Positions 1-46,997 of a stretch of 64,000 bases of DNA are shown here, one piece after another. The stretch's first letter is position 1. Each line of letters starts with the position of its first letter. Made by a program: the position numbers and the translations under genes. A model generated the notes under the pieces. The model saw only the letters and a program-made list of their open reading frames with translations, was not told where the DNA came from and searched no databases. The stretch covers positions 744,001-808,000 of the forward strand of contig JAAVVG010000010.1 of assembly GCA_012976225.1 (NCBI GenBank). Direction: 5' to 3'. The DNA is from Golubevia sp. BC0850 (Eukaryota > Basidiomycota > Exobasidiomycetes > Golubeviales > Golubeviaceae).

Positions 1-3000
1 AGCTAATTTCTTCCTAGTATCATTCAATTTCTTAGCTCTCTTCTCACATTCCTCATTCTCAATAGCAGGATCCATATCCAAAGTTCTTTTCTCCTGGAGC
101 GCTTTACCTTCTTCGAACCATTTTGTATCCTTCTCCAAACTCTCCTTCAGAGCATCTAGTTCGGTTACCGAATATTTAGAAGAACCTCCCGATTCCATAG
201 CTTCAGTTAAATTGGTTCTAGCTTCAGTTAAGAATTCTTGAGTTGAAGAGATGGCGGAAGTAAGGATTTTGAAAGCAGTATCTCTGGCACTTGCACTTGC
301 GATTCTCTTGTCGATAGGTTTGATTAACTTTTCCATTTCTCTTTTCTTATCTTTGAGAGCACTGTGATCAGCTTTCTCTTCAGCATCAGTTCCGAACCAC
401 TTTCCGACTTCTGCTAACTTCTTCTTCAGAGCTTCTCTTTCTGACTTTTGAGATGCTTTGACGAACTTAGATTCAACGTCATCTTCAGAGTCGACTAAAG
501 ATCTTGCGTGGTAGAAGTAAGCTTCCAATTCGTTTCTGGCAGTATCCCTCTGAGCCCTCCTCTCAGTGGCTTTGTCGGCTAAGTAGAGTCTGTCCTTTGA
601 AGCCTTCAATTCGTCTCCGCCAATAGGTTTTGGAGCTAGTAAACCAGATTGGGAAGCTCTAGTGTAAGCTGCTAGCTTGACAACTCTGTCCTTTGGTTCT
701 GGAGCCGGCTTCTTCTTCTCTTGAGGTGAGGTTGAGTTTGAGGAATCAGTAGAATTCTCGTCTGTTAGGCCTTCGTCTAGAGGATCTTCTTCCTCCGCTC
801 CGGCACCAGCCTTCTTCCCACTAAACCAGCTCTTCAAGACTCCAGCGATTCCACCTTCATTCTTTGGCTTGACAGTTAGAGTGGCTCCATCGACGATGTA
901 AATTCCAGAAGGTCTGCTTGCGATCGTCACATTTACGTGAGTGAACACGTTATCCATCTCACCTGCATCTTTCAATTCTTGTAGAGCTTCCTTGATCCCA
1001 TCGATCTTGATATCGTATAATCCTAGTTTCTCAGTCGAAGTTTCCTCTTCACTCAAACCTAATTTCAGAGCATCTTCCTTAGAGTAAGAGAAAGAGAAAC
1101 CGAAGTCATCATGAACGTCGTGGTATTCACGAGTGAGAGTGACTCCTTCCTTAGCATCTCCAACGTCGAGACTTCCTCTTGGGAAGAGGACTTCTTCCTT
1201 TCGTAGAGCTCCGTCATCTCCCCTTTCTCTGATCCTGACTTCGAAAGCGTGAGCATCTTTAGCTTGAATGGCTTTCATTCTGAATTGAGGGTTGAAAGAA
1301 GCTCCATAGAAAGCTGCTCCCATGACTGCTGCTTCATCCGCGTTGAGGTTCTGAGCGATGAGAGAAGTTGGAACTGAAGCGTGGGTCTTGAGGGCGTTTT
1401 GGACTAGAGGAACTCTTGAGCCTCCACCGACTAGGACCAGAGAGGCGAGATCAGACTGGTAGGAAATGGTTTGCTGGTTAGAAGAAGTTACGAACGCATA
1501 CATCCAACTTCCTCTAGAGATGTTCACTCACCATGGAGACTCCAGCGTTCTTCAATGCATCTTCAACCGGTCTTGAAAAGCCTTCTTCCAGACCTTTATC
1601 CTTTACTCTCTTTTCGAACTCCTCTCTATCAATTTTAGATCTGAAGTCAACATCCTCAGCCAATCCTTCAACACTAGTGGCTGCGAAAGCATTAGCACTT
1701 AGAATGTGTTTAACCCGGTTAGCTTCACTCAGTAGTCTAGTCATAGCTCTATCATTTTCTCTAAGAGGAGTCTTGAGCTTGTCAGCTGATTTTTCGTTAA
1801 ACTTTTCCACCAACATTTCTCTGATGATTAGATCGAGAGAGAGACCGTTTGAAGGTAGATCCCAACCAACTCCTAACATGTCGATTAGAACTGCTTCTTT
1901 TGAGGAACCGATCGATGCTAAGGAATCTCCGGGAGTTGAAATCATTGAGAATCGAGCTACTGTGGCTTTTGTTGAACCAGAACCAGAATCGTAAAAGAGG
2001 TGGGTTTCTGGAGTTGGGAAGGTTCGAGTGATGGCATACGAGATTGCGACTGGAGGAGGGAAGATTGATGGAGATAACGTGAACTTAGACAAGAGCAGCT
2101 TACACAGTTGACAACTAGTCAAAAAGGAAGATAGAACAGCCTGACTTGCATCTCTGTTGTTCTTTACCCCACATCCTCTCCGGATCCCTTCCTTCCTTTC
2201 GAGCCCCAGCTCCTCTGACCGAATCCCCGCCTCGTCTACTCACCAGCTGTACCATCGCTGACCAACCTAGGTTTGATCCCACTCAAACTAGCAGCATCAA
2301 TCAAACTCTGCCTTTCCTTCGCACCAAAATGACTTGGAACAGTTAAAACCACATCTAATCCCCCAAAAGTTCCAATGTTAGTTCCAGGAAATGTCATCTT
2401 AACCTTTTCACCAGCAACTTCTTCAGCTAAATCCTTGGCATGAGACAATTGCATTCCGACCAATTCTTCAATCGAATAAGAAACTTCATCTCCACCATCT
2501 CCAATCCTCTGAATTGAGAAAGTGTCTCTATCAGTAGTTCCAAACCTAGTCGCTTGATATAAAGATTGTACTAGATCCTTTGAATTCTGACCTAAAGTTG
2601 AGGTTGAAGTTGAGCCTAGAAGAATTTTAAGAGATGAATAAACGTCTGAAGGATATCTTGAAGATAAACCTAGAGCATCTGTTCCTAATAACCTTTCGTG
2701 AGGTGACTTTGATCGAGACGGTGCTGGTGGTTTCCATCCTACTACTGAAGGGAATTTCCTCTTTGAATCTCTTGATAGTACTACGTCGAAAGGTAAACCT
2801 GGTTTAACAAGAGAAGTCTTTAAGAAGGACGTTCCATAATCCATTCCAATGACACCCATACCTTCAACGGAGGGAGCGAGCGAGATCAACGAGATAAAGG
2901 ATAGTAATGATATGAGTAGAAGTAAAGGAAAAGATTTCGACTTGGAGGAGGTAGAAGAGGAGCTCTTTCCCTTTCTGGAAGGAGTGTTGCTGTTGGCTAT

Positions 3001-3015
3001 CAGCATCTTGGCCAA
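1..3015 (-). CDS. LHS1: LHS1/ORP150-type ER Hsp70, 3' end outside window
   Basis: ER-luminal Hsp70-like chaperone of the GRP170/HYOU1/Lhs1 class, which acts as nucleotide exchange factor for BiP during protein import and folding. Exons are 3015-2244, 2049-1532 and 1455 to beyond base 1 (introns 194 and 76 nt); phases match and the frame stays open to the edge, giving at least 915 residues. A basic, Ser-rich start is followed by a hydrophobic signal segment (about residues 29-50). The nucleotide-binding domain begins with GMDYGTS at 58-63, and the phosphate-loop motif LVGGGSRVP lies near 438-446. The visible C-terminal half is charged and helical, as in GRP170 proteins. Any C-terminal ER-retention signal lies outside the window. 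Canonical BiP is unlikely because of the long insert-rich C-terminal half. Confidence 0.93.
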
Positions 3016-3204
3016 GGCTGTCTCTGAACTCTACTTTCTGATTTGAACGTCTATTTGCTGATAATTGATAGTTTCTAGATGCTATGATAGAATGAATGGA
3101 TAGGTCTTTGAATGAATAGGATGAGTTTGCAATGGGGGATGGGAAGCAGGAAGGTTGCCAGCACTTCTCCAACGCTCCAACCAATACGCCAGCGTTGCCC
3201 GCTT

Positions 3205-21260: not shown

Positions 21261-24200
21261 ATGGCCAACTCTTCCTCTTCTTCCTCTTCTTCTTCTAGAC
21301 CTAAGAGAAAGATGTCAAGAGAAACGCAATTCAATCGAGCAGAAGCTGCAGCGAAGAAGGAAAGAAAGCAGAGAGCGGCTGCTGCAACGAGTAACTCTAC
21401 CTCTGCCCCTACCTCTACCAGCTCCTCATCCAGATCCAAGCCAACTTCTAGAAAGAAGACCTTAACGATAGATCCCTTGAACCATAGACATCGATACAAA
21501 TCTTTCAATCAAAGACTTTCTTCACTTCACATTGATGTCTCACGTTCAAAATCCACTTCAACCATTTCAGGTTTAGAACACAATCCTTCAACTTCCACTT
21601 CTTTAGCGATTCCAACTTTACCAGAAGATTCAACAGAAGAAGAATTACAACTTCATTCTTCTCTAAGCCAAACCAATTTCGGTTCAGCTTTATTGGTTTG
21701 GAGAGAATTGAATTTGAGTCTAGGTTTTCAAGCTTTTTTGAAAAATGTGATTGGAATCAGTGGAAGTTTGGTCATGTTATTGCATCACAAGGATGAAATC
21801 TTGGAGGCTATTTTACAGGGTTTAAAACTACCTTCATCAAATTCAAATGTTGAGGCCTCCTCTTTCTATTCTTCACCTTCTTCTCTACATCTCTCCTATG
21901 AACCTTTGTTAGATTTAATCCCTCGTCTATCTCAAGATCTTTCAAATGAATTCCTACCTTTTTATCCTCAAATCTTATCAAGCATCTTACAACTTACAGA
22001 GATTACAAAATCAGACACTGGTGGGAATGAAGTTGAAACTGCCAAAATCGTAGAGAAAGCCTTTGAAAGTTTGGCTAGACTTTTTAGAGAATTGAGTGGA
22101 GAGATTTTGAAAGATTTATCAACTTCAACTTCGGAGAACGATTATCTAGAAGAAACTTGGAGGATCATTAAACCTTACCTTGGTTATTCTGAACCTAAAC
22201 TTCCTTCACCTCAAACCCAATCTCAATCTCAAGATGGAAATCAATTTCAATCAATTGAATTAATAGAACCTTCTTCTTCTTCATCTATCACTCCTAACCT
22301 CCCTTCAACGACCTCTTCAAGACCCCCAAAATTCTCTCCTCACACTCTACGATTCTCTTCAGAAGCCTTAGCTCATCTGGTTCGTAAATCTCCAAGATCC
22401 AAATTGGGAAAGATTGCATCGGTAATGTGTAGAGATTTGGGAAAGATGTTGGATTTGGCTCAGGAGAGAAAGGAGGAATCGAATGAAGGTGGTTCAAGGT
22501 GGGATGAGAAAGGATATGAGAGGAAAATTGGGAGGATGAGAAGAGGGATTGCTGGGGTTTGGGGAGAGGTTGTTAAGGTGAGTTAGTTTGATCCATATTT
22601 AGAGTGAGAGGAGTCGAAAAAGTTGAGAGGGTGATTGGATACGTAGATGAGGAGGATGGGTGGTGAGGTTAAAAAAAAGTGTTGACCTTGCTGCTCGGTT
22701 CTCCCGGGTGGTGTTGAGCTTCAGCCTACTGTAAAAAACTAGAAAAGTGATTGCAACGGGCTGTCAAGCTAAGTTAGTCTAAGTCTTCCTGACTTCTCCG
22801 TACTGACCTTCTCCCGCCACCCGGACCTTCTCTCAATCCTCTCCCACTCAACAGTCAGTAGACCATCGATTACATTCTCAAACCTCATTTCTTCTTTCTT
22901 CCCTTTTTGAGTGCTCTCCACCTTCAACTTCAACCTCCAAGAATTTTCTTAAAGCCAGATCTCAAATCGTAACTCTGGTTTTGACTTCGATAGTTCATCA
23001 CACTTCTAGACCTCATTTGACTTTCCTGATTGAAGAAATGTGTAATCGATGTGGACTCAAATTGAGTGCAACTGAAGGATTGTTGGACAAGGGAGATGGC
23101 ATGGATGTAGATAGAGATGTCGAGTCGGATCAGACACTCATCGACGATTTGAAGGACGCTGTGAATTGGTTGGGAACTTTGATTGGAGTGAGGAAAGGTA
23201 ACAGAGTTGATGGTGAGTATCATAAGAACCTTATTTGTTCAACAAGAATTCCCTTCTGACATTCTCTTTCAATCTCTTCGACCCTCTCAGATTCTATCAA
23301 ATCATCCTTATTCAGCCTCCTTCGAAATCTCTCAACTTTACAATCCAAGATCTCTTCATCTTCTACAAAGAACGACTGGACTTCAATCTCTTCGTCTCTT
23401 ACCATCTTTGAAGCCCTTCTAATTCCAATTGGTAGGATTCAAGATTTAGTCGGAAATGGAATGAAGTCATTGGAGATTTTATCATCTTCCAAATCTTCGA
23501 AACAAAATTCGACAAGTCTTTCTCCTTCTTTCTCGACTCTTGTTCTTTCACTCTCAAATCCATCTTTGAATTGGTCTTCTTTTCATCAATTTGCTTTCCC
23601 AATCGTTCTGACTCAAACGAGTAGAATTATCTCATCGCTTCAAGATGGGGATGATGCTGAAGGGGTCAAGGTTCTGGAGTTTCTAAACGACTTGAACAAG
23701 AATGGGAAATTCGATGGTTTCAAGAATGACGAGTCAAACCATTCGAAGGTTGAAGAGGATGAAAGGTTTGGATCGGGAAAATTGAACCAGAACGAAAGGA
23801 ATTGGATCAGGATTCTAGGAACTTATGTTCTGAAAGGTTTGAAAGCAATGGAAGAGAGAATTCAAGTCTCTTCAAAAGATCAAGGAGTTCAGCTCAAGTT
23901 CAGTCGAAATGACATCAACCTAATCGAACTATCAACACTTTTCAAGAACTATGCTTCGAGTAAATCCGATCAACACGCTGGAGAAGGATTTTCGGGATTC
24001 GCGGACCCTCTGAGGGCGAGCATTGAATCTTTGCTGGACATCATCGAAAGGGATTCTTCGTCAAAGGAGAAGAAGAGTTTTGAATCCCAGGGACCTCTCA
24101 ACAACTACTTTCTCTTAAGCTCTTTGGTTTCGTCTCTCAACTCTATGATTTATTCCTGTTCATCTTCTTCCAAATCGTCAAAGCCAAGTCCAAGCTCCCT

Positions 24201-27200
24201 TTTCTACTCCTCAACCTCTTCAACTTCAAACACTTTAGTCAGTCGAGTTCTTTCTCTTGCAAGCTGGCACAAGCCTACTCTCATCTCTCTTGCTGACTTG
24301 TTAGAGACGTTGAGTCTCAAGAGTATCTCCATACCTCTACCTCTACCTAAACCCCATGAAATCGTAGACTCGCTCACAAATGCATTCATGAGCGGTGACG
24401 GAGAAAGAAGATTGAGCTCTCTGAAAGTCCTTAAAGAATGCGAAAGTTTTCATCAAAAAGATGGTGGCCTTTATGAGAAAGTTTTAGAGGTTGAGAAGAT
24501 CGAGTTGAGCGTTGAAATGATTAGAGACAGAAATGTTAGGATGAGAAATCTCGGTAGAGAAGTAGAGAGATTATCAAATCTTAAATCGAATTCAATCTCA
24601 GAGGAAGAATTCAAGTCTTCAGTCAATTCAGTCATCAAATATCTAGTCGGAAGTTTCAAGCTCAACTTCAAACCAGTTTGGGAAGAAAGTAGAAAGACTC
24701 TTATCGATCTCAGTGCTTCCATTCATTGGGAAAAGCAAGTTTGGGATATCTCTTTCAACGAAATGTTGATCTGTGGGAATGAGAATGTTGGAACTAATCA
24801 AGAGAATCAGATTCCAGAAGTCGAATGGAACGAAGTTATCAGAAGTTTGGCCAGCAAAACCAATCTCAATTCTGGCTTAGATGAAGATCACGAAGAAGAA
24901 GAAGAAGAAGACCGATCTGAACAGGAAGAGGAAGAAGAAGTCGATCCAGATGCTGCTAAACAATTCATAGATCCTCAACTCTCTTCAAGGCGTAAAGCCA
25001 TTAGATCACATCTCTCTGCTCATCTTCAGAAATCAGAAATATCGTTGCCATTTTATGAAGAAGTCATGGATAAGCAGAGGTTTAATGAAAGACTCGACTT
25101 GATCAATTATGAAGCTCAAGTCTTAGCACTTTATGAGAAAATTCCAAGGACTGTGGAGAAGAACAACAAGGAGTTCTTGGAAGTCTTCTTCGAAAGAGTC
25201 CCTTATAGACCGGAGGAAGATGAGGACGAAGAGATCGAAGAAGAGGAGGAGGCTGAAGTAGAGGAAGATCAGGAGGATTCATCCAAAGAAGACGAGGAGA
25301 AGGAAGAAGAAGAAATCGGATCGAAGCAGATTGCTAAGCCTATCAGCAAGAGCTCTTCAACTCCAAAGCTATCTTTGCTTCAAAGACGATCTCGTCTCTG
25401 CTCTTACCTCTCAGTCTTCTCCAAGTTCGGCAATCCAAAAGCGCTCTCTCGTTCTGCAGAACTTCATTCCTTTCTCTACGAGTTATGCTCACTAGGAGAT
25501 GCTAAAGTTCAGAAGCTAGCTTTGGATTGTGTTCTAACATGGAAGAATCCATCACAAACACCTTACGCAGAGAGAATGAAGAACCTTCTCGATCCGAGCA
25601 AATTCAGAGATGAATTGACTGGATTTACTCTCTCCAGCGAAGCTGATTTCGAAGCTGGCTTAGGTGGTGGAAAACCAAAAGGAAACAAAGGTGGATTCAA
25701 AGAATCGAACAAAGAGATCAAGGTACAAGAAAATGATAGGCAACACCTAATGCCGCTAGTTCTGAGACTTTTCTTTGGTCAGATGGTTTCTAGAAGGGGT
25801 AAGAACACTTCAGGTGCTGGTCAAGCTGCTAGGAAAACTGCAATCTTGATCGCTCTCGTCGGTTGCCCTGGAAAGGAACTTGGAACTCTAGTCGATTTAA
25901 TGTTGGATGCTTTCGATGATCAGAAGCCAACGTTTGACAGTGAAGGAAGATTCCAACTAGCTAAAGAAGCTCCAAAAGCCTCGACCAAGAGACAAATCGG
26001 ATTCTTATCTCTACTCGGTGACGTGCTGAAGCATCTAGGTTTAGTTCTGGTTGATTATTGGCCTCAATTAATAGGCGTCACTTTAAATCTCACCAACTAC
26101 AATCAACAGAAAGCATCTCAAGGAAAGGGATCTATCACTCAACCAGCTAGGAACATCAGACAATTAGGATTAAAGAGACTAGCCGAATTCTTCAAGAAGC
26201 CAATCTTCTTCGATTGGAAACCTTTCCTCTCTATCATCTTCAGTGAAATCGTCTCTCCCAAACTCTCTCTCCTCAGAGTCGAAAGTATCCAGAATCCTTC
26301 TGCTCTTCTAGATTTGATTCATACCTGGTCAAGCAAGTCGGATACCATTCACCTGCTAGTAAGCGGAGACAAGACTCTTTTACCTAATCTTTATGCCTGT
26401 TTAAATTCTACCGGAGTCAAGCCTCTGGTCATCACTAGGATTCTAGACGTGGTCGAACGAGCTTTGACTGTCGCAGAAGAAGAGAAGCAAGCTCGTGGAA
26501 TGGGTGAAGAAGCTGAACAAGAAAACGTTTTGAACTCTATCGTCAGACCTTATGTCAGTTCCCTTCTATCGAACATTGGTCCCCTGGTTCATAAGACAAG
26601 CAGTCTATCAGGTGCAGCTGCTATCGCTTCTCAGAAGGACATCTTGTTGAAAAGGGAAATCTCTCTGCTTTCAGCAGTAGCTCCTTTCGTTACCCTCTCA
26701 GCCGATGCCTCCGAACTTCTACGAATCCTAAGTCCAATGGTCAAGAAAGGAAACAAGGTCGTTAATGAGAAGACCAAAGTCGATTTACTTGGAATCTTCA
26801 GAGACCTGCTTCTTTTGACACCGGAGTTCAGAGATTCCAAATCCGAAACCTTCAAAATTCATTACGATCTCTTCTCAGGTTTGTTCGCAAGTCTTAGGTC
26901 TAGGGCAGCTAGGATCAGTTTGGTTGAAGCTTTCGTCCAATTCAAAGAAATTGATGGCTCATTGGAGAAAGTCACTGGCTGGACCAAAGCTCTGAATTCT
27001 TTCAGCACCAAGAGATTAGAAGAATACGATTTCGATAAACGTTTAGATGCTTTCGATGAGATTAACTCTGAAATCGAGAACTTTCATTTGAAACTGACTT
27101 CAACTGAATGGCTTCCACTTCTTCACAACATGATTCATTTCGTTCAAGATGAACAAGAATTAGCAATCAGATCAAACGCAGGAACTACTTTGAAGAGATT

Positions 27201-30200
27201 CGTTCAAGCCGTTTCTACTTCAACTTCCTCAGATCCCGAATCGGAAGAAACTCTGGCTAAGAAGGATCTCTTCTTGAAAGTGGTTTACCCAGGTCTAAGA
27301 AAGGCTTTACGCTCCAAATCTGAGCTGGTTAGAAGAGAAGTTCTCGGAGTTCTGGCTGTCTCAGTCGAAACCTTAGGAGATGTTGGCGCTCTAGATGAAA
27401 TGAGAGGTCTATTAGCAGATGGAGATGCGGAAGCAAGTTTCTTCAACAACATCCATCATATTCAAGTTCATAGAAGAGCTAGAGCCTTACGTCGTCTTGG
27501 AGATGAAGCGTCAAAGGGAGTCTTGAAAAGCAAAACTATTTCAGATGTCTTAGCTCCTTTGATCGGTCATTTTCTGAATCCTGAGAACGTAGAGCTTCAC
27601 GATCCAAACTTGGTTAATGAGACTATCGCATGTCTTGGTAGACTATCAAAACAATTAGGTTGGAGTAACTACAACAATCTGCTTTGGAGGTATCTTCGTT
27701 TAGCCAATGAAAAGTCAGCTCACGAGAAGGTTTACGTCAGAGCTTCAATGTCAATCTTGGATGGATTCCACTTCTCGATGGAGGAACAAGCCGAAGTAGA
27801 AGTCAAGAAGAAACGGTCTGAAGGCGATGGAGATGCCGAAGGAGAAGCGAAGGAAGATGAAGAAGATGAGGGAGACGACGAAGCTGTCGATTCAGCAGAG
27901 GTTGCAGCTGCACAAGAAGCCAAAGCTAGAAGCGTCAAGATCTTGGATGCCGTCACTGGAAAACTCCTCCCATCTCTCATGAACTATCTTTCTCAAAAGG
28001 ACGACACCGACGATGCTGTCAGACTCCCAATCGCAGTCGGAGTGGTCAAAGTGGCCAAGTGTCTGCCTCCAGCAAAGAGAGAAGCTCACATCCACAAGCT
28101 TCTCAACACTCTCGCCAATGTTCTCAAGAGTAAAGCTCAAGATACTAGAGATCTAGGTAGAGAAACCCTCTGGAAGGTCTCTCTCCAGCTAGGTCCTTCC
28201 TACTTTCCAGCGATGGTCAAGGAGCTTCGCCGATCTCTCACTCGTGGTCCTCAACTGGCGGTTCTAGCTTTCACAGTCCACGCTCTTCTAGTTCATATGA
28301 TGACTTCAGCCGAGAACGCTTTAGTCGCTCTGGATCAAGGTATCGAAGACGTAGTTCACGTTGCTACTGAAGACATCTTTGGTCACACTGCCGAGGATCG
28401 AGACGATCCAGGATACAAGTCTAAGATGAGAGAAGTTCGTCAAAGTAAGAGTATGGATACTTTCGAACAACTCTCCAAGATCGTAGTTCCTCATAGGATG
28501 AACAGCGTTCTCCTTCCTCTCAGGGACATCATGCAACAAACCGAGATTCTAAAGGCCATGAAGAGCATCGATGATGTTCTCAGAAGAGTTGCAGCTGGAA
28601 TTAACGCAAATCTTCACTTCGATTCTTCCGCTCTTCTAGTTCTTTGCCATACTCTCATCAGTCGTAACGCTGCCTTTCTTCAACCAAGAAAGCAGACTGG
28701 TGCCAAGGTTGGAGCCAAGGGTGGCCCTCTCGCTGGTTACAAGTTCGCAGTTCTTCTGAAGAGGAAAGAAGTCGAAGCTGCTCAAGGAGCTGGAAGAGAT
28801 CACTACGCAAGGAACGCTCATCGGTTCGTAGCTTTCGGGTTGGACCTTCTCGTCACTGCTTTGAGGAGAGCAAGATTCGACTTCGCTGATAATCAGGTTC
28901 TAGCTAAGATCGACCCGATGGTCTCAGCAGTTGGAAACACTCTCTATGCTACCGAATTTGGAGTACTTAATCTAGGACTTAAGGCTACAGGAGGTCTTCT
29001 CAAGTGTCCCGTTCCTTCTCTTCCTCCAAGTCTTCCAATCTTTCTCAAGCAGATCTTCGCCATTATCCACAGAAGTGGAACTGCTCAATCAGACATCACC
29101 CAGACAGCTCTCAAGACTCTCACCTCAATTCTGAGAGAGTGCAAAGATGCCGACATCAAAGAGAAGCAATTGACGGAACTTTTGGCTTTGATCCTTCCAG
29201 ATCTAGAAGAACCTATTGCTCAATCAACGCTATTCGGACTGCTCAGAGCCATCGTCACTAGGAGATTCGTAGTTCCAGAAGTTTACGACGTAATGGACAA
29301 GGTCGCAGAGATGCTGGTCACCAATCAAAGCGGACAAGTTCGAGAACTCTGCAGAGCCACCTTCCTTCAATTCCTTCTCGATTACCCTCAAGGTAAAGGG
29401 CGTCTGAAGAATCAGATGGCTTTCTTAGCTAAGAATCTCTCTTACGTATACGAAAGTGGTAGACTGAGTGTCATGGATTTAATCTCTGCAATCTTCTCCA
29501 AGTTCAGTGATGATGTCATTCGAGAGCATTCCGATCTGTTCTTCGTAGCTTTGGTCATGGTTCTAGCAAATGATGAGTCTTCAAAGTGCAGAGAGACTGG
29601 ATCCAAACTCCTTCGAACTCTCGTCGGTATGCTGGAGGAGAACCAGCTCAACAAATCGATTCAAATGACTCACGCTTGGTCCGGCCAGACTGAACGTCAA
29701 GAGCTCTCCAAGGTTGGAATGCAAGTCTACGGAATTCTGTTGGAAGGAGCTCCAGACTTCTCTTCCGGGTGGCTACCTAAAGCTTCACAGAACATTGGTT
29801 TAGCTCTCAAAGACTGTGCTGATGATCTTGAGACCCTAGAGACCTCTGCCGAATACGGAGAAGATCAAATGGACCTAGACGTGGACTGGCAACTACCTTA
29901 TCAAGCCCTTCAAGCTCTGACCAAGATTCACAAGGTCGATGCATCGCTAGTCTCGGAAGAAACTTGGGATTCGGTTCGTAGGTTGCTTCTATTCCCTCAC
30001 AAGTGGGTTAGAATCGCTGCTTCTAGACTGCTAGGATCTCTCTATTCAACTTCGACTCCTGTTGCTCCCTCAATGACAGCAGACATCAAGGATCCTTTGA
30101 GTTTCGTCGCTCTGACAGATTGCGCAAAGAAGCTGTCTCTTCAACTCAGAAGCTCAATCTTGGACGATAACCTTAGTCTGCAAATTGTCAAGAATCTTCT

Positions 30201-31228
30201 TTTCATTGGAAAATCTCTTGCATTGATCGAAGTTCGTTCGAAGCAGGTTGAGGACCTTGAGCAAGCTGTACAGGAGAATGGAGCTCCAGGTGAAGAGGGA
30301 GAAGATCCTGAGAATGAGATGGACAGGGATGACGAAGAAGACGACTCAGAGGACGAAGAGGAACAAATTGAAGCTGCAGCGAAGATCGATAACTCAGCTG
30401 GAATAGTTGAGAATCCTCTAGCTTGGCTATTCTCCAAGTTATCTCATCAAGCTCGTTCCTCACAACTTTCTAGAAAGCCTTCTGGTCCAGAGGTGAGTTC
30501 AGAACAGACTGGGTCTCTCACTTAAGGAAGCTTTCAACCTCACAATGACTAACTCAATCTCATCACTCCCCTTTCAATTGCTTCGACAGACGAAATGGTC
30601 TATTCAACCCTCTTCCATCCTCCGCTGGTTCGCAGCCATGTCTGCTCATCTAGAACCCTCAAGAGTTGAAACTTTTCTGCCTCACATCATCACTCCAATC
30701 CATCGCATTATAGATGACGAAACTATCAAGAATCCTCAGATGGGTGAGTGCTTTTCTTTTTTCTTTCTTTTATGTTCTCAAGCTTGATCTTTGAAGATGC
30801 AAGCATCAATCTGACTCTCTCTTCTCCTTTTCCCCGATCGTCTGGTTCTCTATAATCTACAGAGGAGTTGAAGACTCTGGCAACTGAAGTCCAAGATCTC
30901 ATTCAAGAAAGAGTGGGCACTTCCAAGTTCTCGACAGCTTATCAAATCGTCAGGAAACGTACTCAAGAAAAGCGTAGAGAAAGAAAGACAAACCGATTGA
31001 TGCAAGGTATCAAGAACCCAGAAGCTGCTGCTAAGAGAAAAGCTTACAAGAACGATGCTAAGCATGCTAGTAGGAAGAGGAAGAACAGTGGTTTTGCGTG
31101 AGTAGTCAAAGAGAAGCTACAGAGAGAAGGAGCTTTTACTGATCCTACCTGTCCACCCCCTGCTGTTTTCCCCGTTCCACAGCGATAGAAAAGATCGCAT
31201 CAAGCCTTTGAAGAGACATCGTGGTTAG
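21261..31228 (+). CDS. UTP20: UTP20, U3 snoRNP / SSU processome component, 3074 aa
   Basis: Very large HEAT-repeat protein of the small-subunit processome and 90S pre-ribosome, needed for 18S rRNA maturation. Exons are 21261-22577, 22942-23212, 23291-30492, 30590-30743, 30863-31097 and 31183-31228 (introns 364, 78, 97, 119, 85 nt), closing exactly at 3074 codons. The N-terminus has the family segment NHRHRYKSFNQRLSSLHIDV. The 7.2-kb exon 3 is helical-repeat sequence with acidic insertions near 24890-24950, 25210-25320 and 27780-27900. The C-terminus is basic. The last 46-nt exon adds DRKDRIKPLKRHRG; without it translation would stop at TGA 31099-31101. It is longer than yeast Utp20 (about 2490 aa), mostly through acidic insertions and a longer N-terminus. 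Confidence 0.93.
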
Positions 31229-42097: not shown

Positions 42098-45000
42098 CTA
42101 AACTCGTTTCTCAGTTCCGACTCCAATAGCACCCAGAACGGCTTCTCCCAGCTGATGTCTATTCCTAATTCTGGCTCCTGAGATGCTGAACTCTAACTCC
42201 AGGAAAGAGTCTCCGTTGATTGAGCTTACATCATCAAATTGAGGAATGACAGGAGTGGAACTTTGATGGGATGAAATCTTTGAAGAGGAAGAAGACGTTT
42301 TGAAAGATGAACCACCGACCTTGACCAGAGGACTTGATTTTTGAATTTGTTCCTGTTCTTGAAGTTGAGCTAGAGTAGGACAAGATTGAGGAACGATACC
42401 TAAAGCTCTAAAGATCGCTTCAGTAGAACTTGACACTTTAGCTTCTTTCTCTCTTTGTTCTCTCTCTTTCTCTTTCTGCACTTCATTAGCGGAAGGTTTG
42501 ACTTTCAACCCATCACCTAAATCTCTGCTCATAGTGACTGAAGTATCTGGTCTTAAACTTAAAGCTTTAGTAGCTAAACCTTGAAGTCCCCCAGAACTTG
42601 GAGTAGATACAGTCGAAGAACTCTTGGGTTGTTCAGAAGTCGAACATTCTAAATCTTTGAGACTCTTCGGAGTTTGCAGGAACAAGGTCAACTTGGTCGG
42701 AACTGAAGGACAAGCCTCATCTTCTTCACCTTGATTCTCGACTTCTTCAGGGTTCGACTTTCTAAGCCTGTTGGAGACTTCATTAGATTTGGGTGCTCCG
42801 ACAAGAATAAATCCTCTTTCACCATCTAACTCCAATCTACTTCCAATGAAAGCACCGAGGTCTCTAACCTTGTTATCCTGTTCCGAAGTAGAACCAGAGT
42901 CTCTGTAGATTGAAGAGTAATCTTGACTCTTTAGTGCTGGAAGACCTGACAGCCATCCTGAGAAATCTAGCAGCTCGTCCGATAAGTTCGAGAGATCGAT
43001 CCCAGCGCTTTGAGAAGAAGCACTGCTTTGCTCTTCGGGATATTTTGCATCTAGGTAGTAGTTGCCGTTTGGAACGTAGTAGTTGAGAGCTTTGTTGCTT
43101 GTTCCGGATTTGGTAGTCGAAGATCCAGAGCTGCCATTCTTCAAGATCGGTTGAATTGCGTTTGATCCTGCTCCGCGACTGGAATCCTCTATCCTACAGA
43201 CGGGCAATAGTCTTGCAGTCTCCAAGCTGACGTCGGTGATTTGACAAGCTGGAAGTTTCCTGCCTTCCGATTCCATTATTTCATCTTCGACAGAAAGATG
43301 TAAATCTTTGGAAGAGAGATGGGATGAAGGCGTACTGCCTGAAGGAGATTGGGATCTTGAGGGGTTCCTGTTTTGAGCGTTGGATGTCAGAACTCTTCCG
43401 AGAGAGAAAGGTGTGCTACTGCATCGGAGGAAGCATTAGCGAGAGAATAGGAGATGTGGGAAGGAAAGGGAGGTGATCAGTCAGAATGTATGCCATCACT
43501 TTCGACCCTTCTTCACCGCCCTTTCTTGATCGTATCCTTCCGAAAGACTCACCTCGAGCCACTCCCGCCTAGCCTTCCCATTCCGTTCTCAGTTCCACTT
43601 CCACTGGGCATTCCCCAAAGAGCGAAACTGAACAAAATTACCATCAAAGCCATTCCAGAAGCAGTCTTTCTCTGTCCCTGGTTTTGGGTTGAACTAGATT
43701 CAATAGGATTCCTCTCGTTACTGCTTGAGGGGCTCAAATGTTGATTGTGAAGAATTGGAGTTCCAGGAATTGAAAGCGAGAAAGGAGAAGCTGGACCATT
43801 TCCGAAGGAAGAAGTGAAAGAAGGTGCAAGACTTAGATGATGAGGCCTTTTGAGTGGATTTAATCTAGAAGGATTATCGATTGAAGTAGAGAATTCTTCA
43901 GGAATTGAATTCTCGAAAGTGGAAGGATAAGAGAAAGTTGGTTGAGCTTGATCTTGAGATGAGGGACCGTTTTGTGTTCCGGCAAATGATAGATCTAGAT
44001 CCATTGAGTGAGGATCAGAACTAGATTGAGGAAGAACTGAATCCGAATGAGAGAATTCTTGGCCATTTATTAAGTTCATCATTCCTAAACCACCACTTTC
44101 ATTAGAATTAGAGGTAGATCTTTCGACTGCTAGCTGTCGCAGTAAGGCTAAATTTTGAATTTTGGACTGGTTCAATTCATTTTTGAGAGCTTGAACTTCA
44201 TCTGTTCCCTCGTTAGAATAAGAGATAGGCGGTGGAGGGGGAGGAGAGTTCATGGTAATAGTAGATGAAGAAGATTCCACAGTGTTCTCTCTTTCTCTCT
44301 TCTTTCCCTTTTTGTTTCCACCTTTCTTGTTTCCCTTTTCTTCTTGAGGGGATGAAAATTGGTCTTTCTCCTCTTTATTCGCCTTTCCTAAAACCTCTTC
44401 CAAAACTTCCCCGCATTTCTCACCAGCTCTATCTAATTCGATCTTAATCATCTTCTCGACTCTTTCGCCTCCATCAATTTCGTCCTTCAACCTTCCTAGA
44501 ACTGACCAAATCGCTTTGCAAGCTCCCTCTAAGATTTGAGTCTTCTTTTCTAATTCTCCGAACTCTTCCCTTTTCCTCTGTCTGGAGAGGAAAGCTGCAG
44601 CTCTGTTCTTGACCAATCTAGCATCTTTCTTGGATAAACCTGTTACATCTGGAGGAACAAATAGCGAAGAATGAGAGACAGAAGTGTCTACTACTGGTAG
44701 AGGCTTTGTCGAAACGACTGGAGAAGAGGCAGCAGAGGGAGATCCCGAAGAATCATTTGATGTCTGTTGATTGGGAGTTGATTCTGCGTTAGTAGAATTG
44801 CTTTGTTTACGTTTCCCTCTTGTTCCAGCATTCGCAGAAGCTCCACTTTGCCTCCTCGTAGCAGCTTTTGCAGTTGCAGGAGTGGTTTCTTCTGAAGTAC
44901 CGTTAGATCTACTTGCCCCACTACTTGAAACCTTTCTCTTCTTCTCAGCTGGACCAGCCTTACTTTCTAATGTTGGTAAATTTTTTGAAGGAGGTGGAGG

Positions 45001-45717
45001 AGGAGTATTGTAAGTCGAAGTTGAAGCAGAGGAGATCTCCCTCGCACCACCATGATCTGAACTAGAGGAAGAAACTGAAGAGGAGGAAGAAGTTGAGGAA
45101 GTTCCAATCAGTGAAGGGGAGATAGAATTATCTGAAGTAGTTTCAATTCTAGCATTGAAAGCCCATTGATCTTGATTGAAAACTTGAGGATTAGTCGAAG
45201 CATTGTTGAAGAGGGATGGCCAAAGCGAAGAGAAAGTGGAGGGATGACTCCAATCAGTCGATTCTCCATCGTCTTGAGGTTGGAATTCTTGTTTGACTTT
45301 CGAATTAAAAGGGTTGCCAAGCTTGAAAGATGAATCATTTAATGAGAGAGGGTTACCAAAATCAAAATCGAAGGTTAGGTTGGAATCTTGTTGGTGATTG
45401 AATTGTGATGAGATTGGATCTGAGAAATCTAAAGTTGGTGTCTTCAATTCTTCGTCTACGGACATTTCTGAATTGAAATTTAAGGATTGAGGTGAAGAAG
45501 CTGAAGAGGAAGAAGAGGGAGAAGAGGAAGAAGAGAGAGAGGAGGAAGAAGAGGTACAGGTAGGTGCGAAGGTAGACTCCTCTTGGAATTGGTGATTGGA
45601 TTCAGGCAGAATCAAATCTTGAGCGTCTAAGAAAGTTTCAAGTTCATCGAATTGAGTTCCGGATCTCATAGACGTTTCATTATCATATTCCTGATGCTCT
45701 GCAGGATAAGATTCCAT
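42098..45717 (-). CDS. ATF6-like membrane-anchored bZIP transcription factor, 1161 aa
   Basis: Two long frames are one gene: exon 1 45717-43553, a 134-nt intron (GTGAGTC donor, GATGCAG acceptor), exon 2 43418-42098. Phase 2+1 fits and the join is open throughout. Residues 1-350 are Ser-rich and acidic, an activation-type region. The basic region is NRAAAFLSR (371-379, the NxxAAxxSR pattern) in KNRAAAFLSRQRKREEFGEL, followed by a short zipper. One hydrophobic segment, 686-703 (ASGMALMVILFSFALWGM), precedes about 458 residues that would lie in the ER lumen. This is the ATF6/plant bZIP28 layout: cytosolic bZIP, single anchor, luminal sensor. RVLT at 730-733 fits the site-1 protease pattern. The luminal part has Ser-rich linkers and an ordered end (FLELEFSISGARIRNRHQLG); I recognise no family there. 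Topology and cleavage are inference. Confidence 0.82.
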
Positions 45718-46997
45718 TCTTGCTGCGTTGCTGGCTGCTGGCTGAGGCTGTGCGACGACTCCAGGTGTCTTGTCTCTCTTGCGTCTTGAATGTAAAATTG
45801 AAATTGAAAGTGAAAAGCAGAAACTAGAAGTGGAATGGAAAGAAGAGAATGTGTTTCAGGAGAATAGAATGTTCAAGAAGAGAATCAATTTAAAGTTCGT
45901 TCCAGCACCTTTGCCTCACTTCTCTCCGCGCCGCCCGTTCATCGCCTTCCGCTCTCCCCTGATTCCACTCGAGTTCCACGTCACAAACTGCCATCTCCAA
46001 TTTCTGCTTCTCTCCAATGAAAAATCAGTAGAAGGAGTTGAACAGAACGTTGCCAAAGAGATCCAGACTAGGAGATAGCATTGTGGATAAGGTTTCTTTG
46101 AGGCAAGTAGGTTCGTTCTCCTAATAAATAGCTGAATACTATCCGATCTTCTTCTAACTTTGTTCGATTACGATTTACCAACCAAACTAGGCTTTCCTTC
46201 AATGGAGATTTACAACGATACATCCGTGATCCGTCCAAATCAGCTACGTGAGAGGTCCGTTCGCGAGAGGTTCATTCGTAGCAAAACAAGAAAGGAAAAG
46301 ATTCTCAATCTTGAGAGCTTGAACGAGGACAGATGCTGAGAGCTTCTACTGATGGTGAAGACGTCTTCAATCGGAGGAAACTTTCAGCATCTTCAACCTG
46401 CAAACGCCAGATTTGAGGAGAGAGAGAGCTGATTGCAAGTTGAGAAACGATGAGAAATTGTGCCTGAGCCCAGCGAGAAATGAATAGAGAAGTACAAAGC
46501 GCAGGAGTGGGTGTGACGATGGACCAAGACCATAGAATGAAAGAAGTGCCACAAAGAGATGAAAGAAGAGAAGATAGAAAAATAGCAGTGGGGAAACAGT
46601 CAAAGATGAGTTGGGTATAGACCCTCAAACGCCGGAGAAGAGAAAGCTGTGAGACGCAAAAGAAAAGAAAAGCAGATAACCTGAATCCAAAGTCAGTAAG
46701 GATATCAGAAGTTAGAGAGGTTGGACAGGAACTTATCTTGAGCTGGGGTCGCATGCTGTCAGGCAACAAGACAGCTCAGTGCTCGAGCCAGGCGGCCGCT
46801 CGTCTCTCTCCGGATCAATAAAGGCAGCTTAAGGAAAGATGACAAAGGTCCAATAACGCCAGCCTGCTCCTAAGCTCAGTAGCATGGTCTACGTTCTCGA
46901 GAGCTGCGCCAGCTACTGCCCTATCCCCTCTCCAGCTCCTCACCACAACTCCTCTGTCATTTGAAGCTCACCTATTTCATAGATTAATTGAAGAATA
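45718..46997. other. 1.3-kb intergenic region, upstream of the TM-bZIP gene
   Basis: Holds the bZIP promoter and the 3' flank of SELENOK. A minus-strand ORF at 46754-46305 (149 codons, very hydrophobic, with LIFDCFPTAIFLSSLLSSL) and a plus-strand 45-codon ORF at 46202 are possible but unsupported. No splice partners or family match. Confidence 0.35.
45976..45983 (-). promoter_or_regulatory. exact ATF6/CRE-type core TGACGTGG upstream of the TM-bZIP gene
   Basis: The plus strand reads CCACGTCA, so the gene's strand reads TGACGTGG. It lies about 260 nt before the ATG at 45717. This is the core bound by ATF6-class and other CREB-like bZIP factors. Autoregulation is a possibility, but a specific 8-mer occurs by chance about twice in 64 kb counting both strands. 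Confidence 0.35.

Follow-up and report, generated by a model that had tools for sequence, protein, structure and literature searches.

Known tethered factors and fungal Ire1 targets

In the accessible portions of the literature, the fungal sensor of endoplasmic reticulum (ER) stress is given as Ire1, and ATF6-type factors are assigned to animals and plants (PMC3935401, PMC10512342); PERK-like kinases, whose role is unknown, are also mentioned for anaerobic fungi (PMC10512342). The plant factor bZIP28 is described with its bZIP at residues 192-237, a TM segment at 321-344, and an RRIL motif in the tail (excerpts of PMC9237531). Among fungal factors of the Hac1 type, Cryptococcus HXL1 is reported to contain an unconventional intron of 56 nt with CAG at both borders (PMC3154848, in part), and the ChIP-seq motifs of Ustilago maydis Cib1, which autoregulates cib1, are given as T/CGACGTGGAAG and TGACGTGG (PMC6490947, in part). 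No report of a tethered bZIP in fungi was found in the accessible text of the open-licence literature, which is not proof of absence, and the term 'transmembrane' was not found in the literature searched on Aspergillus LziP, a factor named after the human protein.

A two-exon gene with a bZIP, one hydrophobic segment, and a long tail

The window is the whole stretch of DNA analyzed here, 64,000 nucleotides in length. One of its genes, hereafter the window gene, has the layout of a bZIP followed by one hydrophobic segment and a long tail. Its features are as follows:

45976-45983, minus strand: unfolded-protein response (UPR) element TGACGTGG, 266 bases upstream of the start codon
43553-45717, minus strand: exon 1, coding for residues 1-721 and two bases of codon 722; it covers a Ser-rich N-terminus, the bZIP, the linker, and the hydrophobic segment
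44473-44631, minus strand: bZIP domain, residues 363-415 (N371, R379; zipper L389, L396, I403, L410)
43609-43665, minus strand: hydrophobic segment, residues 685-703 (TASGMALMVILFSFALWGM), Kyte-Doolittle 1.73
43419-43552, minus strand: intron of 134 nt (GTGAGT ... CTAAT ... CAG), with a tandem acceptor CAGTAG
42098-43418, minus strand: exon 2, remainder of residue 722 through 1161 (tail, fold unassigned)

The first-pass annotation had joined two ORFs, 43549-45717 (722 aa) and 42098-43276 (392 aa), through a consensus intron, and this model was confirmed in its positions, donor (GTGAGT at 43552), branch-like motif (CTAAT, 17 nt 5' of the acceptor), and acceptor (CAG at 43419). The join of 134 nt yields a single ORF of 1161 codons. 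A scan of possible joins (donor pattern GTRNGW, intron length 40-400 nt, both frames required to be open) returned eight in-frame solutions, all with the donor at 43552; three had a branch-like motif, and the 134-nt join was the shortest. No other donor that bypasses the hydrophobic segment and keeps the frame open emerged from the same scan. Over the 47 codons from the acceptor to the second ATG, codon statistics only weakly prefer the stated frame (-0.10 vs -0.27 and -0.36 bits per codon), so the predicted intron depends on its sequence signals.

The fit of donor, branch-like motif, and acceptor to the consensus, an exon 2 frame that stays open upstream of its own ATG as far as 43435, and a gap of only 272 bases between the ORFs all argue against two genes, that is, a 722-residue bZIP protein ending 19 residues past the segment and a separate 392-residue protein. 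That reading, for which the ATG in each ORF and the weak coding bias of the pre-ATG part of exon 2 can be cited, and likewise the fact that intron retention would terminate the protein at 722, 19 residues past the hydrophobic segment, appears improbable to us.

Two further observations concern the transcript. The tandem acceptor (CAGTAG, window 43421-43416) makes forms of 1161 and 1160 residues both possible. A possible leader at 45718-46300 contains five ATGs ahead of the start codon, with frames of 8 to 51 codons; translational control through them is possible if the transcript begins that far upstream. Elsewhere in the window, an ORF of 2354 residues (23461-30525, plus strand) resembles, we presume, a UTP20-type ribosome biogenesis protein, and an HSP70-family gene (1-3030, minus strand; Pfam HSP70) with a signal-like N-terminus is taken by us to be the likely ER chaperone LHS1/GRP170.

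The bZIP that had been claimed at residue 371 was borne out by a significant Pfam bZIP_1 match to residues 363-415 (E 4.6e-9), the best score among the eight bZIP_1 matches in the genome. It has a short four-heptad zipper (region 371-410), and a linker of about 270 residues separates it from the hydrophobic segment. This segment, claimed at 686-703, was found at 685-703 and is indeed the sole hydrophobic stretch of the protein, but it stands only moderately beyond chance: its Kyte-Doolittle score of 1.73 was equaled or passed by 33 of 1000 whole-protein shuffles.

The hydrophobic segment is a borderline candidate for a membrane anchor

Such marginal hydrophobicity (33/1000 shuffles as good) would suit a soluble nuclear bZIP, merely ER-stress-induced under Hac1, in which a largely disordered chain uses the stretch as an activation or docking motif and has its tail in the cytosol or nucleus. 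What speaks against this is that a 19-residue run, mostly hydrophobic and free of D, E, K, R, N, Q, H, and P, is seen only once in the protein, and that the score was reached by only 7 of 1000 shuffles of the local region (residues 481-903). Lysine and arginine are also unevenly placed, with three in the 20 residues before the segment and one in the 20 after, so the flanking charges fit an anchor with a cytosolic bZIP. On the biological hydrophobicity scale, sums over 17-19 residues lay between +0.17 and +0.81, and over 21 residues the sum was +3.88. None of the five helix-breaking motifs taken from the available text of PMC9237531 was found in residues 685-703.

The eight bZIP_1 matches were also compared from the bZIP onward to the close of each open frame, without following introns, so that some of the stretches (33 to 549 residues) are short; no segment above 1.03 was found in the seven others, and the window protein alone scored higher. 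The HAC1-type protein described below also lacks a comparable segment (best 1.04). In the same genome, the hydrophobic segment of an SREBP-like factor scores 2.51, versus 1.73 in the window protein. According to the accessible part of a 2026 paper (PMC13294678), ATF6 itself was omitted from a 2001 screen because its anchor was detected by only two of four programs; a weak score is therefore compatible with an anchor. We consider residues 685-703 a borderline candidate for one.

Behind the segment lie 458 residues with 24% S+T, 23% charged residues, 5 Cys, and 2 sequons. The few sequons and the Ser-rich, charged composition agree with the soluble alternative, as does the failure to detect homology to the ATF6 tail. 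Exon 2 matched no family in a Pfam scan, NCBIfam gave sub-threshold matches only, and a PDB search with the tail returned nothing at E up to 10. Apart from exon 2 itself, its best match in the genome was a Ser-rich frame (25% identity, E 0.149), and no relatives were found in viral contigs (both exons) or prokaryote genomes (exon 1 only). Single-sequence structure predictions were uninformative (mean pLDDT 36 and 38). When the tail was aligned with an ATF6 tail, a single-sequence test of little power, 89/500 shuffles and 132/500 block shuffles were as good locally, and 212/500 and 303/500, respectively, globally. A likeness to the ATF6 tail near the C-terminus (EFSISGARI), spotted by eye, was discarded, as neither local nor global alignments were better than shuffles. 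Taken with the evidence on the segment, the soluble protein is a real possibility, although we are inclined to doubt it.

The promoter shares a UPR element with KAR2, ERO1, and a HAC1-type gene

The 8-mer TGACGTGG at -266 occurs once in the 64 kb of the window (0.69 expected) and at least once in 46 of 100 shuffled windows; therefore, only its placement is informative. Set beside the Cib1 ChIP-seq motifs, the form in the window-gene promoter is TGACGTGGAAC. Because four motif classes were tried on this promoter, the match is to some degree post hoc, and the other genes provide the test. The same 8-mer was found upstream of KAR2 (-320 and -214), ERO1 (-84), the HAC1-type gene (-307), and a SARAF-like gene (-74). 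KAR2 was identified by BiP as its best PDB hits, a signal-like start, and a GDEL end. The 8-mer is absent from the calnexin-like gene (2201-base region) and from the 2494 bases upstream of the LHS1-like gene, so that it is present in two of four deliberately chosen genes for ER chaperones or oxidase. It was not found in 29 other, unrelated loci (103803 bases), which include five other HSP70 loci. Of 60 loci compared, 9 carried it, and these map to five gene places.

Because the element is shared with KAR2, ERO1, and the HAC1-type gene and equals the Cib1 motif, the window gene is probably a UPR target, a member of the regulon by its promoter. The layout alone did not reveal this probable membership. 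The SARAF-like gene (locus L012, about 1240-936, minus strand, contig C22) was met by chance; it adjoins the site-2 protease on the downstream side and carries TGACGTGGAAG at -74, and its name is our presumption.

A separate gene fits the Hac1 role

Ire1 was found in the genome, as was another bZIP gene:

Contig C11 (G000:C11), about 940300-942060: HAC1/Cib1/Hxl1-type gene (locus L060), encoding a bZIP and preceded by a UPR element of its own (-307)

This gene has two CAGCAGC loops 59 nt apart, the first on a stem of 8 pairs and the second on a stem of 3, and excision of the 59 nt moves translation into a frame that is open to the locus end. In RNA folding, the first hairpin appears in the centroid with a 7-nt loop; the second is recovered only as a hairpin of 3 pairs whose loop is 6 nt. 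Overall, the 121-nt region is not stabler than shuffles (52/200 as stable, z -0.72). We take this to be the Hac1-type gene of the genome.

These data bear on the reading of the window gene itself as Hac1/Hxl1/Cib1 under Ire1 splicing, with the hydrophobic stretch guiding the message to the ER in the manner of XBP1u or bZIP60. The window gene does have the top bZIP_1 score of the genome, a UPR element as expected under self-regulation, and a hydrophobic stretch shortly before the intron. None of its eight Ire1-type loops (CNGCNGN) has a stem of at least 4 pairs, however, and its intron ends are spliceosomal, while the C11 gene combines a bZIP, CAGCAGC loops, its own UPR element, and a frameshifting 59-nt intron close in length to the 56 nt reported for HXL1 (PMC3154848, in part). 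The reading is thus largely refuted and we consider it very improbable. Since it has no paired Ire1-type loops and a separate HAC1-type gene exists on C11, the window gene, judged by these features, is different in kind from the HAC1-type gene and not a Hac1 orthologue; its candidacy as the Ire1-spliced orthologue was rejected.

Candidate proteases and an SREBP-like factor

Fungal SREBP (Sre1) is a tethered factor freed by a site-2 protease. In the genome analyzed, a site-2 protease was found on contig C22 (M50, with both metal-site motifs, HEAGH and NMLPLPHLDGD); each of its exons falls slightly below the Pfam cut-off, and a comparison with PDB gave no match at E 0.1. A signal peptide peptidase is also present. 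An SREBP-like bHLH factor with a hydrophobic segment is encoded on contig C10; since this factor by itself accounts for a site-2 protease in the genome, the protease was downgraded as specific support for a tethered bZIP. DUF2014, the SREBP C-terminal family, gave no match, and the controls were equally silent.

For a first cut, at least seven subtilase matches in at least five genes were found, these counts being lower bounds. Pfam analysis of eight subtilase exon pieces identified one with a P-domain (kexin-like) and none with a site-1 label. The strict site-1 motif Rx[LIT][KL] does not occur in the 1161 residues of the window protein; seven looser sites (Rx[LITVF]x) do, the first being RVLT at 730. 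The first cut of plant bZIP28 is itself attributed to a still unknown protease in the accessible text of PMC9237531, and the missing site-1 signals are therefore not fatal.

Discussion

We propose that the window gene encodes a membrane-tethered bZIP factor of the UPR, a plausible reading to which, with a marginal segment in one species, we give nearly even chances. The hydrophobic segment would anchor the protein in the ER membrane and leave the bZIP on the cytosolic side, and ER stress would raise the level of the protein through Hac1. Under stress, an initial cleavage of the tail and then the site-2 protease would free the N-terminal half, which could then enter the nucleus and bind UPR-type sites, alone or with Hac1. 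As a second arm driven by proteolysis, the factor would be connected to the Ire1-Hac1 arm in the way ATF6 is connected to XBP1. We advance only tentatively the broader view of a two-arm UPR, in which Ire1-Hac1 and a tethered, protease-released bZIP sensor stand under a shared UPR element, either as an overlooked fungal ATF6 lineage or as an independent invention. If true, a tethered bZIP in the UPR regulon beside Ire1 and a HAC1-type gene would alter the picture of fungal ER stress and offer a simple host for studying the origin of tethered sensors.

The first-pass annotation had suggested a second, proteolysis-driven branch and a search for site-1 and site-2 protease homologues. The distinction from the HAC1-type gene, the promoter UPR element, and the site-2 protease agree with such a branch, but no strict site-1 motif was found and no site-1 protease was recognized. 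Of the ATF6/bZIP28 layout it had seen, the bZIP, segment, and long tail hold, while the linker is far longer than in bZIP28 and the tail has no detectable ATF6 homology.

Among known systems, fungal SREBP (Sre1) differs in being a bHLH rather than a bZIP factor, and the SREBP-like gene on C10 is separate from the window gene. Fungal Hac1, Cryptococcus Hxl1, and Ustilago Cib1 share with the window gene a bZIP and a promoter UPR element; unlike them, it has no Ire1-type hairpins, and another gene fits their role. Plant bZIP28 and bZIP17 are alike in layout and in having a bZIP separate from the Ire1-spliced one, although the linker of the window protein (~270 residues) far exceeds that of bZIP28, whose RRIL motif is not in the window protein. 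Metazoan ATF6 differs in that the window protein has a ~270-residue linker, no strict site-1 motif, a tail without detectable relation, and a marginal candidate anchor. The two are alike in a bZIP followed by a single hydrophobic segment and a long tail, in an Ire1 arm alongside, and in a UPR-type promoter logic. Without assigning it membership of the ATF6 family, we propose that the window factor may function like ATF6.
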